DNA of 21,186 nucleotides from a virus: positions 1 through 21,186 of the IMG/VR virus record IMGVR_UViG_3300005915_000144; one strand, given 5' to 3'. Below, one piece after another: positions 2,316 through 17,298 of this stretch. A program made the translations under genes and the position numbers. Below the pieces are notes generated by a model. It was not told the origin of the DNA. It searched no databases and worked only from the letters and a program-made list of their open reading frames with translations. The stretch's first letter is position 1, and the number at the start of each line of letters is the position of its first letter.

Positions 2316-2594
2316 ATGGAATTAAAACCTATTAAAAAAGTTTATGAGCTGGAGCTTCAGGAATTAAAACCAGAGGATGAAATACAAATGAGTGATAATT
2401 GCAAATGGTCCGGATATCAATTTATTTATACAGCTGGCCACGGTTATTTAGTTATTCCTAAACATGATCAACACTTTATAAAAGCTTGCGCGCTTTGTGA
2501 GTATGGATACATTGGTCAATTAGCAGTATACTTAGAGGAAGACTGTGAAGCGCCCGCGTTTGTTGATCAGATCAACGCGAAAGTTGCTGTTTAA
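2316..2594 (+). CDS. Unrecognised 92-aa protein
   Basis: Starts MELKPIKKVYELELQELKPED behind the repeated leader hairpin. The rest is a mixed sequence with aromatic residues and four Cys (NCKW near the middle, then CALCEYGYIGQL), which could include a metal site, though the pattern CALC alone is not proof. No signal peptide or membrane segment. Its TAA stop (2592-2594) overlaps the first base of the hammerhead ribozyme stem I, so terminating ribosomes would cover the ribozyme 5' strand. Confidence 0.65.
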   Translation: MELKPIKKVYELELQELKPEDEIQMSDNCKWSGYQFIYTAGHGYLVIPKHDQHFIKACALCEYGYIGQLAVYLEEDCEAPAFVDQINAKVAV

Positions 2595-2650
2595 CCCTCT
2601 GATGAGCCCCTGCAAAGGGTCGAAACGGGCTTTAATTAGCCCGTCAGGGT
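2594..2650 (+). ncRNA. Type I hammerhead self-cleaving ribozyme
   Basis: All conserved core parts are present in order. Stem I 5' strand ACCCT (2594-2598); core CTGATGA (2599-2605); stem II (2606-2621), with G-C, a C/T mismatch, three C-G pairs and a TGCAAA loop; core GAAA (2622-2625); stem III CGGGCT / AGCCCG (2626-2631 and 2638-2643) with a 6-base loop; then TC (2644-2645) before the cleavage point, completing a canonical GUC; stem I 3' strand AGGGT (2646-2650). A2625 pairs with T2644 as the family requires. Stem I is the open stem, making it type I. Cleavage after C2645 would split the early mRNA 34 bases before the next start codon. The stem II mismatch and the unassessed loop contacts leave its in vivo rate uncertain. 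Confidence 0.9.
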
Positions 2651-2679
2651 ATTATATAAAGAGAAAGGAGGATTATATC

Positions 2680-2841
2680 ATGCTTAGAATCGAAATTGAA
2701 ACGGGAAACGCGGCCTTTGAGCATCCAGATCAGCTGGATCGAATCTTGGAGAACGTTAGCAAAAGAATTAATGAAGGGCAAACAGAAGGAAAGCTCCGCG
2801 ATATAAATGGGAATACAGTTGGCTTTTTTAACCTAAACTAA
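2680..2841 (+). CDS. Small conserved-looking phage protein, 53 aa
   Basis: ATG 2680 follows AAAGGAGG with good spacing; a longer upstream frame would run through the ribozyme and is rejected. The sequence MLRIEIETGNAAFEHPDQLD, then RILENVSKRINEG and GKLRDINGNTVGFFNL, matches a pattern I know from many phage and plasmid mini-proteins (a strand with xNAAFE, a central helix and a terminal DxNGNxVG turn). Its function is unknown. It is the first gene on the 3' product of hammerhead cleavage, so its mRNA would begin with a 5'-hydroxyl end. Confidence 0.75.
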   Translation: MLRIEIETGNAAFEHPDQLDRILENVSKRINEGQTEGKLRDINGNTVGFFNLN

Positions 2842-7287: not shown

Positions 7288-7519
7288 GTTTCTTGAAAGA
7301 AGATTGTTTTATCATCATTTGACACATAAGCAAGTAGTTTATTTAGCCCAAATCATCAGAGCCGAAATGGTTAAGAGGTTGCCCGAAAAAGCATTTGAAT
7401 TTAAAGACCCAAGAAGCCATGGCTACCAAGTAGATTTTAATGAAGGTTTTAATGATTGCCGAACAAAAGTCAAATCAGCTTTAATGGGGGAGAATGATGG
7501 AATATCAAGAATTAAGTAG
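7253..7519 (+). CDS. Unrecognised 88-aa protein whose 3' end contains a repeat copy
   Basis: Begins MKEQDKTDWLVEFLERRLFY and looks helical. A GGGGG site precedes the ATG, which lies inside the HTH gene. Near its C-terminus the frame runs through the first copy of the direct repeat (7469-7491, encoding VKSALMGE), and the final residues GISRIK overlap the next small gene. The last 15 or so residues may therefore be repeat-derived, not ancestral. No function recognised. Confidence 0.6.
   Translation: MKEQDKTDWLVEFLERRLFYHHLTHKQVVYLAQIIRAEMVKRLPEKAFEFKDPRSHGYQVDFNEGFNDCRTKVKSALMGENDGISRIK
7469..7491 (+). repeat. Direct repeat copy 1 of 4
   Basis: 23 bases, beginning GTCAAATCAGCTTTAATGG and ending GGGA. 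It is read in frame as coding sequence in the 88-aa gene. Identity with copy 2 extends two bases further upstream (AAGTC). Confidence 0.8.
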
Positions 7520-7652: not shown

Positions 7653-7671
7653 GTCAAATCAGCTTTAATGG
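7653..7671 (+). repeat. Direct repeat copy 2 of 4 (truncated)
   Basis: GTCAAATCAGCTTTAATGG, then the GGGA end is replaced by an AAGGAGAGTAAAATGA leader that carries the next gene's ribosome-binding site and start. The same leader follows copy 3, so copies 2 and 3 share a longer duplicated intergenic segment. Confidence 0.8.
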
Positions 7672-7683
7672 AAGGAGAGTAAA

Positions 7684-7863
7684 ATGACCAAAATGTTACA
7701 GCCAGATTGGGAAAAGGAATATGGATATGCTGGGGGCTTTCAAACAGCACTAATGATAACAATTGAACACGCAGATAGCATAAATCTTGCAAAACTTGAA
7801 AAAGAATATCCAGAAATTGTATTGGCATTTCGGAACTTTTCAGGCAGGTCAAATCAGCTTTAA
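7684..7863 (+). CDS. Small unrecognised 59-aa protein ending in repeat copy 3
   Basis: ATG 7684 follows AAGGAGAG. The protein begins MTKMLQPDWEKEYGYAGGFQ and contains a helical middle (SINLAKLEKEYPEIVLAF). The last residues RSNQL and the stop TAA come from repeat copy 3, so its C-terminus was probably set by a recombination or duplication event. No family recognised. Confidence 0.55.
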   Translation: MTKMLQPDWEKEYGYAGGFQTALMITIEHADSINLAKLEKEYPEIVLAFRNFSGRSNQL

Positions 7864-7870
7864 TGGGGGA
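7848..7870 (+). repeat. Direct repeat copy 3 of 4
   Basis: Full 23-base copy identical to copy 1 over its whole length. Here it is read in a different frame (SNQL-stop) and followed by TAAC and then the AAGGAGAGTAAAATGA leader shared with copy 2. Confidence 0.8.
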
Positions 7871-7887
7871 TAACAAAGGAGAGTAAA

Positions 7888-8250
7888 ATGAAACCAGAAA
7901 CAATTATGATTGACGAAGTTAAGTATGTAAGGGCTGACATAGAACAGTCAGCAGAGAAGTTAGATGGGATGAAGTATTGCATAGTTCGTACTTATTCAGC
8001 AGGAGTTTTTGCTGGATATGTAGAGTCAAGAGAAGGACAAGAGGCTGTTATTAGGAAATCAAGGGGGTTGTGGTATTGGGATGGTGCTTGTGGTTTATCT
8101 CAACTTGGTGTTGATGGGACAAATAACCCGAATAACTGTAAATTTACAGTAGAGGTTGACAATAGAGAGCTTGTTCAGGTTATAGAGGTCATAGAGTGTA
8201 CTGAGAAAGCAAGGAAATCAATTCAGGCGGTGAAATTATGGAAAAAATAA
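7888..8250 (+). CDS. DUF6948-like phage protein, 120 aa
   Basis: The core MKYCIVRTYSAGVFAGYVES (about residues 28-47), followed by GLWYWDGACGLSQLGVDGT and KARKSIQAVKLWKK at the end, matches a protein family I recall from many phages and prophages of Gram-negative hosts (DUF6948). The family has conserved YSAGVFAG and WYWDGA motifs. Function unknown. AAGGAGAG lies 6 bases before ATG 7888. The stop is embedded in the start of the Gly-repeat gene (ATGGAAAAAATAA), a 13-base overlap, and in other phages similar proteins precede a Gly-rich repeat gene. Confidence 0.65.
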   Translation: MKPETIMIDEVKYVRADIEQSAEKLDGMKYCIVRTYSAGVFAGYVESREGQEAVIRKSRGLWYWDGACGLSQLGVDGTNNPNNCKFTVEVDNRELVQVIEVIECTEKARKSIQAVKLWKK

Positions 8251-8528
8251 ACTCTGGCTCTGGCTATGGCTCTGGCTATGGCTCTGGCTCTGGCTATGGC
8301 TATGGCTCTGGCTCTGGCGATGGCTATGGCTATGGCTCTGGCTATGGCTCTGGCTCTGGCTCTGGCTCTGGCGATGGCGATGGCTATGGCTATGGCTCTG
8401 GCTATGGCGATGGCTCTGGCTCTGGCTCTGGCGATGGCTCTGGCTCTGGCTCTGGCTATGGCTCTGGCTATGGCTCTGGCTATGGCTCTGGCTATGGCGA
8501 TGGCTCTGGCTCTGGCTCTGGCGAATAA
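8238..8528 (+). CDS. Gly-Ser/Gly-Tyr/Gly-Asp repeat protein, 96 aa
   Basis: After MEKINS the whole protein is 44 Gly-X dipeptides (24 Gly-Ser, 14 Gly-Tyr, 6 Gly-Asp) and a final Gly-Glu. It has no hydrophobic core, so it is probably disordered and possibly phase-separating or adhesive, as Gly/Tyr/Ser-rich polymers can be. Every Gly codon is GGC and every partner codon ends in T, so the gene is a DNA hexanucleotide array. Translation is likely coupled to the DUF6948-like gene by overlapping stop and start. Frames in two other registers are also open because of the repeat, so open reading alone is not proof; the coupled start and the family precedent support this frame. Confidence 0.6.
   Translation: MEKINSGSGYGSGYGSGSGYGYGSGSGDGYGYGSGYGSGSGSGSGDGDGYGYGSGYGDGSGSGSGDGSGSGSGYGSGYGSGYGSGYGDGSGSGSGE
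8256..8519 (+). repeat. Hexanucleotide tandem array, 44 units
   Basis: Units are GGCTCT, GGCTAT or GGCGAT in irregular order, with invariant GGC and a final T. Only the middle two bases vary. Such a tract can expand or contract by slippage in steps of 6 bases, keeping the frame. Confidence 0.9.
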
Positions 8529-13028: not shown

Positions 13029-13445
13029 ATGAGTCAAAGATCGAACGGAGAAGTGAAAATTGTAGAGAAAGAAGTTATTAAAGAAGTAGAAAGAAACGTT
13101 ACCGTCGAGGAGATAGCAGAAGCAGCGCATGAAATTAATCGCGCTTACTGTTTAGCATTAGGAGATGATTCTCAGCCGTCGTGGGCTGAAGCTCCTGAAT
13201 GGCAAAAAACATCTGCTGTTAATGGTGTAGTTTTCCATATCCAAAATCCGGAAGCGGGACCAGAAGCAAGTCACGAAAGCTGGTTAAAAGAAAAAGAAGC
13301 CGATGGTTGGGTGTTTGGTGACATTAAGGATCCAGAAGCAAAAGAGCATCCTTGCATGGTTCCTTTTAAGGAGCTTCCAACATCACAGCGAGCTAAAGAT
13401 TATATCTTTCGTGCTGTTATTCATTCTATGGCGAAAAGTTTATAA
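13029..13445 (+). CDS. RyR-domain protein, 138 aa
   Basis: After a charged N-terminal segment (KIVEKEVIKEVERNVTVEE), the protein contains EINRAYCLALGDDSQPSWAE, then VFHIQNPEAGPEASHESWLK and GWVFGDIKDPEAKEHPCMVP. This is the RyR domain (Pfam RYR, named after ryanodine receptor repeats), found in phages and prophages as a stand-alone protein of unknown role. Conserved HES-W and HPCMVPF motifs are intact and length fits one domain. It sits between the ssDNA-binding-like gene and the polymerase, and its stop overlaps the polymerase start (TAATG). Confidence 0.85.
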   Translation: MSQRSNGEVKIVEKEVIKEVERNVTVEEIAEAAHEINRAYCLALGDDSQPSWAEAPEWQKTSAVNGVVFHIQNPEAGPEASHESWLKEKEADGWVFGDIKDPEAKEHPCMVPFKELPTSQRAKDYIFRAVIHSMAKSL

Positions 13446-16065: not shown

Positions 16066-16201
16066 AGAATTGGCTGAAGCTCACTGGTCCTATATTGAAG
16101 CGTTACTCCAGGCTAATAATGTTTTACCATCGAAGTCTGATAAGTTTCATTATAAATCAGCTTTCATCCATGGGTATAAACACGGAAGGACAGATCAATG
16201 A
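16028..16201 (+). CDS. Small unrecognised 57-aa protein
   Basis: ATG 16028 follows AAAGGAG inside the zinc-ribbon gene, and TGA 16199-16201 overlaps the next start by 4 bases. The sequence starts MPSKPDLRKDKSKELAEAHW and ends SAFIHGYKHGRTDQ, a helical pattern common in phage mini-proteins near replication genes. No family named. Confidence 0.65.
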   Translation: MPSKPDLRKDKSKELAEAHWSYIEALLQANNVLPSKSDKFHYKSAFIHGYKHGRTDQ

Positions 16202-17298
16202 GTTATTTCCTAGCCGCTTTAGTTACCTTAAGATTAGTAATGTGGCGCGTCTTTCCACAGTTCGGTATGGAGGTAGTCTCGGACGGTATCTTCGGTATGC
16301 TGGCCTTTACCGTATACGTTTTATACCTCGTCAATAAACGATATACTCGCTTCACTCCCTGGATATTCTTATTGGTGATAAGCACGGTAATATCTTTTTT
16401 CTATTCTCCTAACTTACCTCTCACTTTCAACACCTGGTTTCTTCTCTTAATCAATATCTTAGGTTTCGTATTGGCCGTACAGCATCTTCGGAATAAAGAA
16501 GCGGCGCCTTTTTTATGGCTGGCTATGCTGTTAGGAGCTACCGTAGCGGCATTGGTAGGTATCTGGGAGTTCTTCATACTAAGGTCTTATGCACCGTCTC
16601 CTACAGCTAGTATGGCGGTACAAAGCATCTATGCAGCAAAGCGATCGTGTTCTTTTCTTGGCTGGCCGACTATATTTGCAGGGTACCTCGTTCTCTTTAT
16701 ACCGAGCGCGTGGGTAATGGCCCGGGATTGCCGGCCACGGAATAAAGTCTTTTGGTCGGCTTGTCTTATCTTCTTACTGCTGGGCTTAGCTTCTTCTTTT
16801 TCTGTCCTAGCTCCGCTTAGTCTGTTATCAGCCGTCATTATTTCCGGCAACGTTAAGCGGTTAAGATGGATGCTAATCGTGGTAGGATTAGTGCTTTTTT
16901 CAGCTGGGAGTACCAAAACATTAGCTTCGTTTATCGCTTCTAGAACCGAATATTATCAAGCAGCTTGGCAAATGATCTCTCAGCACCCGTTTGTAGGGGG
17001 TGGTGCAGGGTTGTTTCAGTCTACAGGATCCTCTCCTAGCATATTCGCGCATAATAGCTATCTTCAGATATGGGCCGAAACAGGGCCTATAGGTCTGATC
17101 GGAATACTGGGAGTCGTGTATACCTTCTGGACACTGAAACCAAAAACAAATTTTGGTAAAGGTATGTATGTGGGGTTACTTGCTTTCTTCATTGATAATT
17201 TATTCAGTTTTTCTTTGATCAAAGCTAACCTATCCTTTGCCGGATGGATAGCCCTAGCTTGTTACTACGTCTATTACCGAAAGGAGAGCATGTCATGA
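16198..17298 (+). CDS. O-antigen ligase/polymerase-like membrane protein, 366 aa
   Basis: About ten hydrophobic segments with short loops span the protein. The signature region SRTEYYQAAWQMISQHPFVG (about residues 243-262), followed by GGAGLF and AHNSYLQIWAETGPIGLIGI, is the Wzy_C/WaaL domain of O-antigen ligases and polymerases, including the conserved Arg and His. Such enzymes transfer or polymerise sugar chains at the outer face of the inner membrane. Both ends overlap neighbouring genes by ATGA, so it is fully built into the replication operon, not a separately promoted cargo gene. It may alter host surface sugars to block superinfection (inference). Confidence 0.8.
   Translation: MSYFLAALVTLRLVMWRVFPQFGMEVVSDGIFGMLAFTVYVLYLVNKRYTRFTPWIFLLVISTVISFFYSPNLPLTFNTWFLLLINILGFVLAVQHLRNKEAAPFLWLAMLLGATVAALVGIWEFFILRSYAPSPTASMAVQSIYAAKRSCSFLGWPTIFAGYLVLFIPSAWVMARDCRPRNKVFWSACLIFLLLGLASSFSVLAPLSLLSAVIISGNVKRLRWMLIVVGLVLFSAGSTKTLASFIASRTEYYQAAWQMISQHPFVGGGAGLFQSTGSSPSIFAHNSYLQIWAETGPIGLIGILGVVYTFWTLKPKTNFGKGMYVGLLAFFIDNLFSFSLIKANLSFAGWIALACYYVYYRKESMS

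Follow-up and report, generated by a model that had tools for sequence, protein, structure and literature searches.

A type I hammerhead ribozyme between two small phage genes, and the contact of phage type I hammerheads with upstream stop codons

The window analyzed here is a whole stretch of 21,186 bases from a virus contig. At positions 2594–2650, on the plus strand, it holds an element that is, as judged by its sequence and structure, a genuine type I hammerhead ribozyme, and that probably cleaves itself and so separates the messages of two small early phage genes. Its first base is also the last base of the upstream stop codon. Contact with a stop codon is a general property of phage type I hammerheads and is not peculiar to the present locus; by itself the locus is ordinary, and the stop-codon rule is the more interesting result.

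The hammerhead element and its genomic setting

Reading of the sequence and our own structural scanner both place a complete type I hammerhead at 2594–2650, exactly where it was first located. The RNA reads ACCCU-CUGAUGA-GCCCC(UGCAAA)GGGUC-GAAA-CGGGCU(UUAAUU)AGCCCGUC-AGGGU. Stem I, which was identified by the scanner and by a covariance model (R1, see below), is composed of a 5' strand (ACCCU, 2594–2598) that forms 5 bp with a 3' strand (AGGGU, 2646–2650). The catalytic core CUGAUGA (2599–2605), in which G2604 corresponds to G8, is recognized by the scanner, by R1, and by sequence, and all its positions except position 7 are invariant in a 50-sequence hammerhead alignment. Stem II (2606–2621) consists of the pair G2606-C2621, a C2607-U2620 mismatch, and the pairing of C2608–2610 with G2617–2619, which is closed by the loop UGCAAA (2611–2616). 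It is followed by GAAA (2622–2625), the last base of which (A2625, equivalent to A15.1) closes stem III, a 7-bp hairpin (2625–2631/2638–2644) with the loop UUAAUU and the closing pair A2625-U2644. On the basis of its position in the hammerhead structure, C2645 is C17, and cleavage is predicted to occur between 2645 and 2646.

The sequence and secondary-structure features by which the class is recognized are present. CUGANGA, GAAA, and UH occur in this order (as CUGAUGA, GAAA, and U2644 C2645), stem I is open-ended, stems II and III are loop-closed, and the three stems comprise 5, 4 (plus one mismatch), and 7 bp, respectively. As regards the tertiary contact that may form between loop II and the stem I side, adenines often flank stem I on both sides in class members, and the window has A2593 and A2651. 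A sequence-only reading of this DNA had proposed a type I hammerhead with all stems and core motifs in order and an A-U pair closing stem III, and every one of these elements is present. The same reading had stem I start on the last base of the upstream stop codon, which agrees with the UAA at 2592–2594 (plus strand), whose final base, A2594, is shared with stem I.

The ribozyme shares the coding strand with the two co-directional genes that flank it and overlaps them only by this last base of the upstream stop codon. The upstream gene (2316–2594, plus strand), identified by ORF calling, encodes a 92-aa protein of unknown function with no Pfam or PHROG match, for which no relatives were found. 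The downstream gene (2680–2841, plus strand) encodes a 53-aa protein matching phrog_9027, a family of unknown function (E 1e-8). Its start at 2680 is preceded by a Shine-Dalgarno-like site, AAAGGAGGA, at 2664–2672 on the plus strand. After the predicted cut, the downstream mRNA would retain a leader of 34 nt (2646–2679, plus strand), which bears out the short leader that had been claimed for it. Farther along the same strand are genes for a VapE-type primase-helicase, an SNF2-type helicase, a DUF2800/PD-(D/E)XK nuclease-like protein, a single-strand DNA-binding protein, and a family A DNA polymerase. The element thus belongs to an early or replication-side gene cluster, and the earlier description of the two flanking genes as early phage genes is reasonable. 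Searches with the flanking DNA, the VapE-like primase-helicase, or the upstream gene returned no close phage relatives, and neither strand of the 21-kb record carries a second hammerhead. Although the downstream gene has 73 viral relatives, the scanner found no hammerheads beside them. Since these relatives occur in other viruses without a hammerhead, the ribozyme-gene pairing is not conserved.

Several other features of the window were recorded. Beside the replication genes, 16198–17298 encodes a predicted protein with a match to the O-antigen ligase family (Wzy_C), possibly involved in surface modification, and a short ORF with a RyR domain match (13029–13445) lies between the genes for the single-strand DNA-binding protein and the DNA polymerase. 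A 38-nt leader occurs immediately 5' of two adjacent genes (1744–1781 and 2284–2321). The two copies, which are 92% identical, read AGGATCTAAGAGGAGATCAAAAC followed by ATGGAA and are perhaps a duplicated translation start region. Another repeat, GTCAAATCAGCTTTAATGG, is present in three copies (7469–7501, 7653–7685, and 7848–7880) at successive gene junctions, near stop/start codons. Finally, 8252–8522 contains ∼45 copies of a 6-nt unit that is open in several frames, and one of these frames (ORF 8238–8528) gives Gly-Ser/Gly-Tyr/Gly-Asp repeats.

Significance of the match and covariance models

As assessed by scanning both strands, the structural scanner gave one match in the real window, compared with 24 matches in 7972 dinucleotide-preserving shuffles (0.003 per window), and none of these 24 had stems as long as those of the window element. 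When applied to 120 loci, it gave 57 matches and none in their shuffles, a result that gauges the false-positive rate only, considering that these loci were partly chosen by motif. The isolated 57-mer has a folding energy of −21.9 kcal/mol (z −2.18). A terminator reading of the element was rejected, as no terminator-like site is predicted there.

The Rfam type I covariance match that the sequence-only reading had anticipated is absent at curated thresholds. A search of the whole window against Rfam returned no hammerhead at E≤1. RF00163 matched nothing. On a 181-nt query, RF00008 scored 22.1 bits, under its cut-off of 48.5. With this query the RAGATH-1 hammerhead model (RF03152) aligns across the whole element, but its extra upstream hairpin is poorly matched, and the score of 19.2 bits is far below the gathering cut-off of 56.3 bits. 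A gathering threshold is a curated cut-off and not a defining property of the ribozyme, and what was required was a class-specific model. We therefore built R1 on a training set of 50 type I hammerheads that excluded the window; 49 of them came from other viral contigs and the remaining one from a bacterial assembly. Across both strands of the window, R1 gives a single match, at 2591–2654 on the plus strand, with a score of 54.6 bits and an E-value of 5.9e-15, R1 E-values being rough. In phage PaP3 (NC_004466), for which a hammerhead has been published (PMC3088659), it matches 44114–44032 (minus strand) and scores 43.9 bits, which is lower than in the window. Because R1 matches both the window and PaP3, the failure of Rfam is best read as poor model coverage, suggesting that the RF00163 and RF00008 models cover the present hammerhead class poorly. 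R1 produced no match in one more phage, LMA2 (NC_011166), and no real match in Bcep176, which has a published hammerhead. The latter carries an A6C core change (PMC3088659), and the miss may be expected because A6 is invariant in the model. Covariation counts drawn from the collected hammerheads are not proof of pairing, since the sequences were picked by pairing.

Contact with the upstream stop codon across hammerheads

Hammerheads were collected by pattern scans of IMG/VR and bacterial genomes, which yielded at least 231 non-redundant examples flanked on both sides by 250 nt or more. All scans require CGAAAC and most also demand GUC, which leaves rarer cores under-sampled. With genes called mechanically, an upstream gene was defined as a co-directional gene of at least 60 codons that ends anywhere from 150 nt upstream to the cut. 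Among the matches listed, 192 of 231 hammerheads have such a gene ending there, compared with 54 that have one on the opposite strand. Among the same listed matches, 81% of the 192 type I hammerheads either overlap the upstream stop codon or begin no more than 3 nt from it: the stop codon falls partly or wholly inside the ribozyme in 88 and precedes stem I by 0–3 nt in 67. Between the cut and the next start there are, as a median, 28 nt among the matches listed. These proportions change little in stricter sets, with stop contact in 78% when one hammerhead is taken per contig and in 81% when, in addition, upstream genes of 100 codons are required (both among the matches listed).

Intrinsic-terminator-like hairpins from the same contigs, an imperfect control since they are frequently found at the ends of operons, where space is less limited, overlap a stop codon or lie within 3 nt of one in only 40 of 232 cases (17%). 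The difference is sharper at close range, where the stop and the start of the stem are no more than 1 nt apart in 37.5% of hammerheads (among the matches listed) versus 0.9% of terminators. Moreover, 34 gaps leave spare room, and in 14 of them the hammerhead (again among the matches listed) still lies against the stop, versus 5.2 expected under uniform placement (P ∼0.00015). The arrangement is also seen next to an annotated gene: in PaP3, orf67 of the deposited annotation ends with a UAA at 44115–44113, about one base before stem I. The placement of the window element on a stop codon, which had been thought striking, is instead a common phage arrangement. We found no earlier reports of hammerhead stop-codon contact in the open-access literature.

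The flanking adenines bear on how the stop codon is to be read. In 26 cases that lack a stop codon there, A is found at −7 and at −6 in 69% each (among the matches listed). Because these adenines are common even outside stop codons, the UAA may partly serve RNA structure. As a separate observation, one viral record (IMGVR_UViG_3300033153_007262, locus L247) has ten serial hammerheads over ∼7 kb, many of which lie on the preceding stop codon.

Candidate roles and known systems

The role of prokaryotic and phage hammerheads has been called an open question (PMC6155905). Stop-codon contact together with a cut ∼28 nt before the next start (median among the matches listed) narrows the possible functions to cutting between messages. 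For the present locus, we consider it probable that the hammerhead splits an early mRNA. A polycistronic RNA would be made, the ribozyme would fold, and cleavage would fall between C2645 and A2646. This would leave an upstream mRNA that ends in folded ribozyme remains, with a 2',3'-cyclic phosphate just past the stop codon, whereas the downstream mRNA would begin with a 5'-hydroxyl and the 34-nt leader. Once separated, each message may have its own lifetime. The fate of a 5'-hydroxyl message may differ in hosts without RNase J. RNase J1 of Bacillus subtilis degrades the 5'-hydroxyl end left by glmS ribozyme cleavage (PMC3328962). For hammerheads, a role in processing long phage transcripts has been proposed, and tandem prophage hammerheads are active in vitro and, for one set, in E. 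coli (PMC3088659).

Message splitting is consistent with the single strong R1 match, obtained with a model that excludes the window and scoring above PaP3, with the position of the element, which is on the coding strand and has a stop codon on one side and a Shine-Dalgarno-like site plus start on the other, with the excess of co-directional over opposite-strand gene ends among the matches listed, and with the existence of serial arrays, ten hammerheads being present in one record. On the other hand, the rare C2607-U2620 mismatch may lower activity, the viral relatives of the downstream gene have no hammerhead, and the record has only one. Folding calculations also count against it: the stem I pairing probability is 0.51–0.72 in most short RNAs and falls below 0.1 with much flanking sequence, in a thermodynamic treatment of naked RNA that ignores tertiary contacts. 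This drop in long naked RNA suggests that cleavage may be favored soon after transcription.

A possible addition to message splitting, rather than an alternative to it, is that a ribosome terminating at the UAA (2592–2594) would block folding, so that cleavage would report the level of upstream translation. Judging by ribosome footprints in general, the 5' strand of stem I would lie beneath a terminating ribosome, and so would the core. The idea is worth testing because the terminators of these contigs avoid the stop codon, unlike the hammerheads, as reflected in the proportions within 3 nt and within 1 nt, and it is also in keeping with the crowding of hammerheads against the stop in roomy gaps and with the contact in PaP3. 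The contact may stem from selection for meeting the terminating ribosome or, instead, from economy of space. Phage genomes are compact, and the next gene must be left a leader, which likewise drives the ribozyme toward the stop; in addition, terminators are an imperfect control, and adenines flank stem I even where there is no stop codon. On balance we regard such gating as unlikely at this locus. The wider proposal that phage type I hammerheads are translation-coupled cutters, whose set placement at the stop codon, often with that codon lying within the ribozyme, lets a terminating ribosome time the cutting of the message, is to our mind equally doubtful, but the stop-codon rule makes ribosome coupling directly testable.

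The mismatch invites another explanation, namely that the element is a decaying or slow copy, a formerly active hammerhead that has lost pair 10.2-11.2 and is now of little importance. Of 211 other hammerheads whose stems are comparable, only 1 is mismatched at this pair (among the matches listed), the hammerhead is single in its record, and no relatives with the same gene pair were found to show conservation. Nevertheless, no core base is altered, stems I and III are undamaged, and the G2606-C2621 pair is retained. Natural hammerheads whose stem II has just two pairs, or a single one, have been reported, as has an active hammerhead with a U-U mismatch at 10.1-11.1 (PMC3088659). Because hammerheads with a stem II this weak exist, activity of the window ribozyme is likely but may be reduced, and we find decay distinctly improbable. 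The C2607-U2620 mismatch could weaken the present copy, and its interpretations as rate tuning and as partial decay are equally open. Lastly, that the element is a chance lookalike or merely an ordinary gene-end hairpin would accord with the sub-threshold Rfam scores, but is rendered extremely improbable by the shuffle control, the R1 score, and the contrast between the 120 loci and their shuffles.

Compared with known systems, the window alone is an ordinary further example of a hammerhead, with an unusual stem II mismatch. The type I hammerheads of phages and prophages (Perreault et al. 2011, PMC3088659) have the same core, three stems, and an open stem I, and are likewise intergenic in phage genomes and co-directional with genes; the window element differs from them in its 10.2-11.2 mismatch, its single copy in the record, and its scores below Rfam thresholds. 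The PaP3 hammerhead, found by the same R1 model and similarly placed near the UAA of orf67, belongs to another phage and other genes and differs by a long stem III hairpin and a paired stem II. A PaP3 hammerhead, possibly the one at 44114–44032, is listed among active core variants (PMC3088659). Theta ribozymes of gut phages (PMC10879173) are also small self-cleaving RNAs at the end of another phage gene, but they have an HDV-like fold and adjoin tRNA genes, whereas the window element has a hammerhead fold and adjoins a stop codon. A hammerhead in a Clostridium sp. assembly (L368, 2249–2302) shares the stem I of the window element, and its stem III opens alike (CGGGC/GCCCG).
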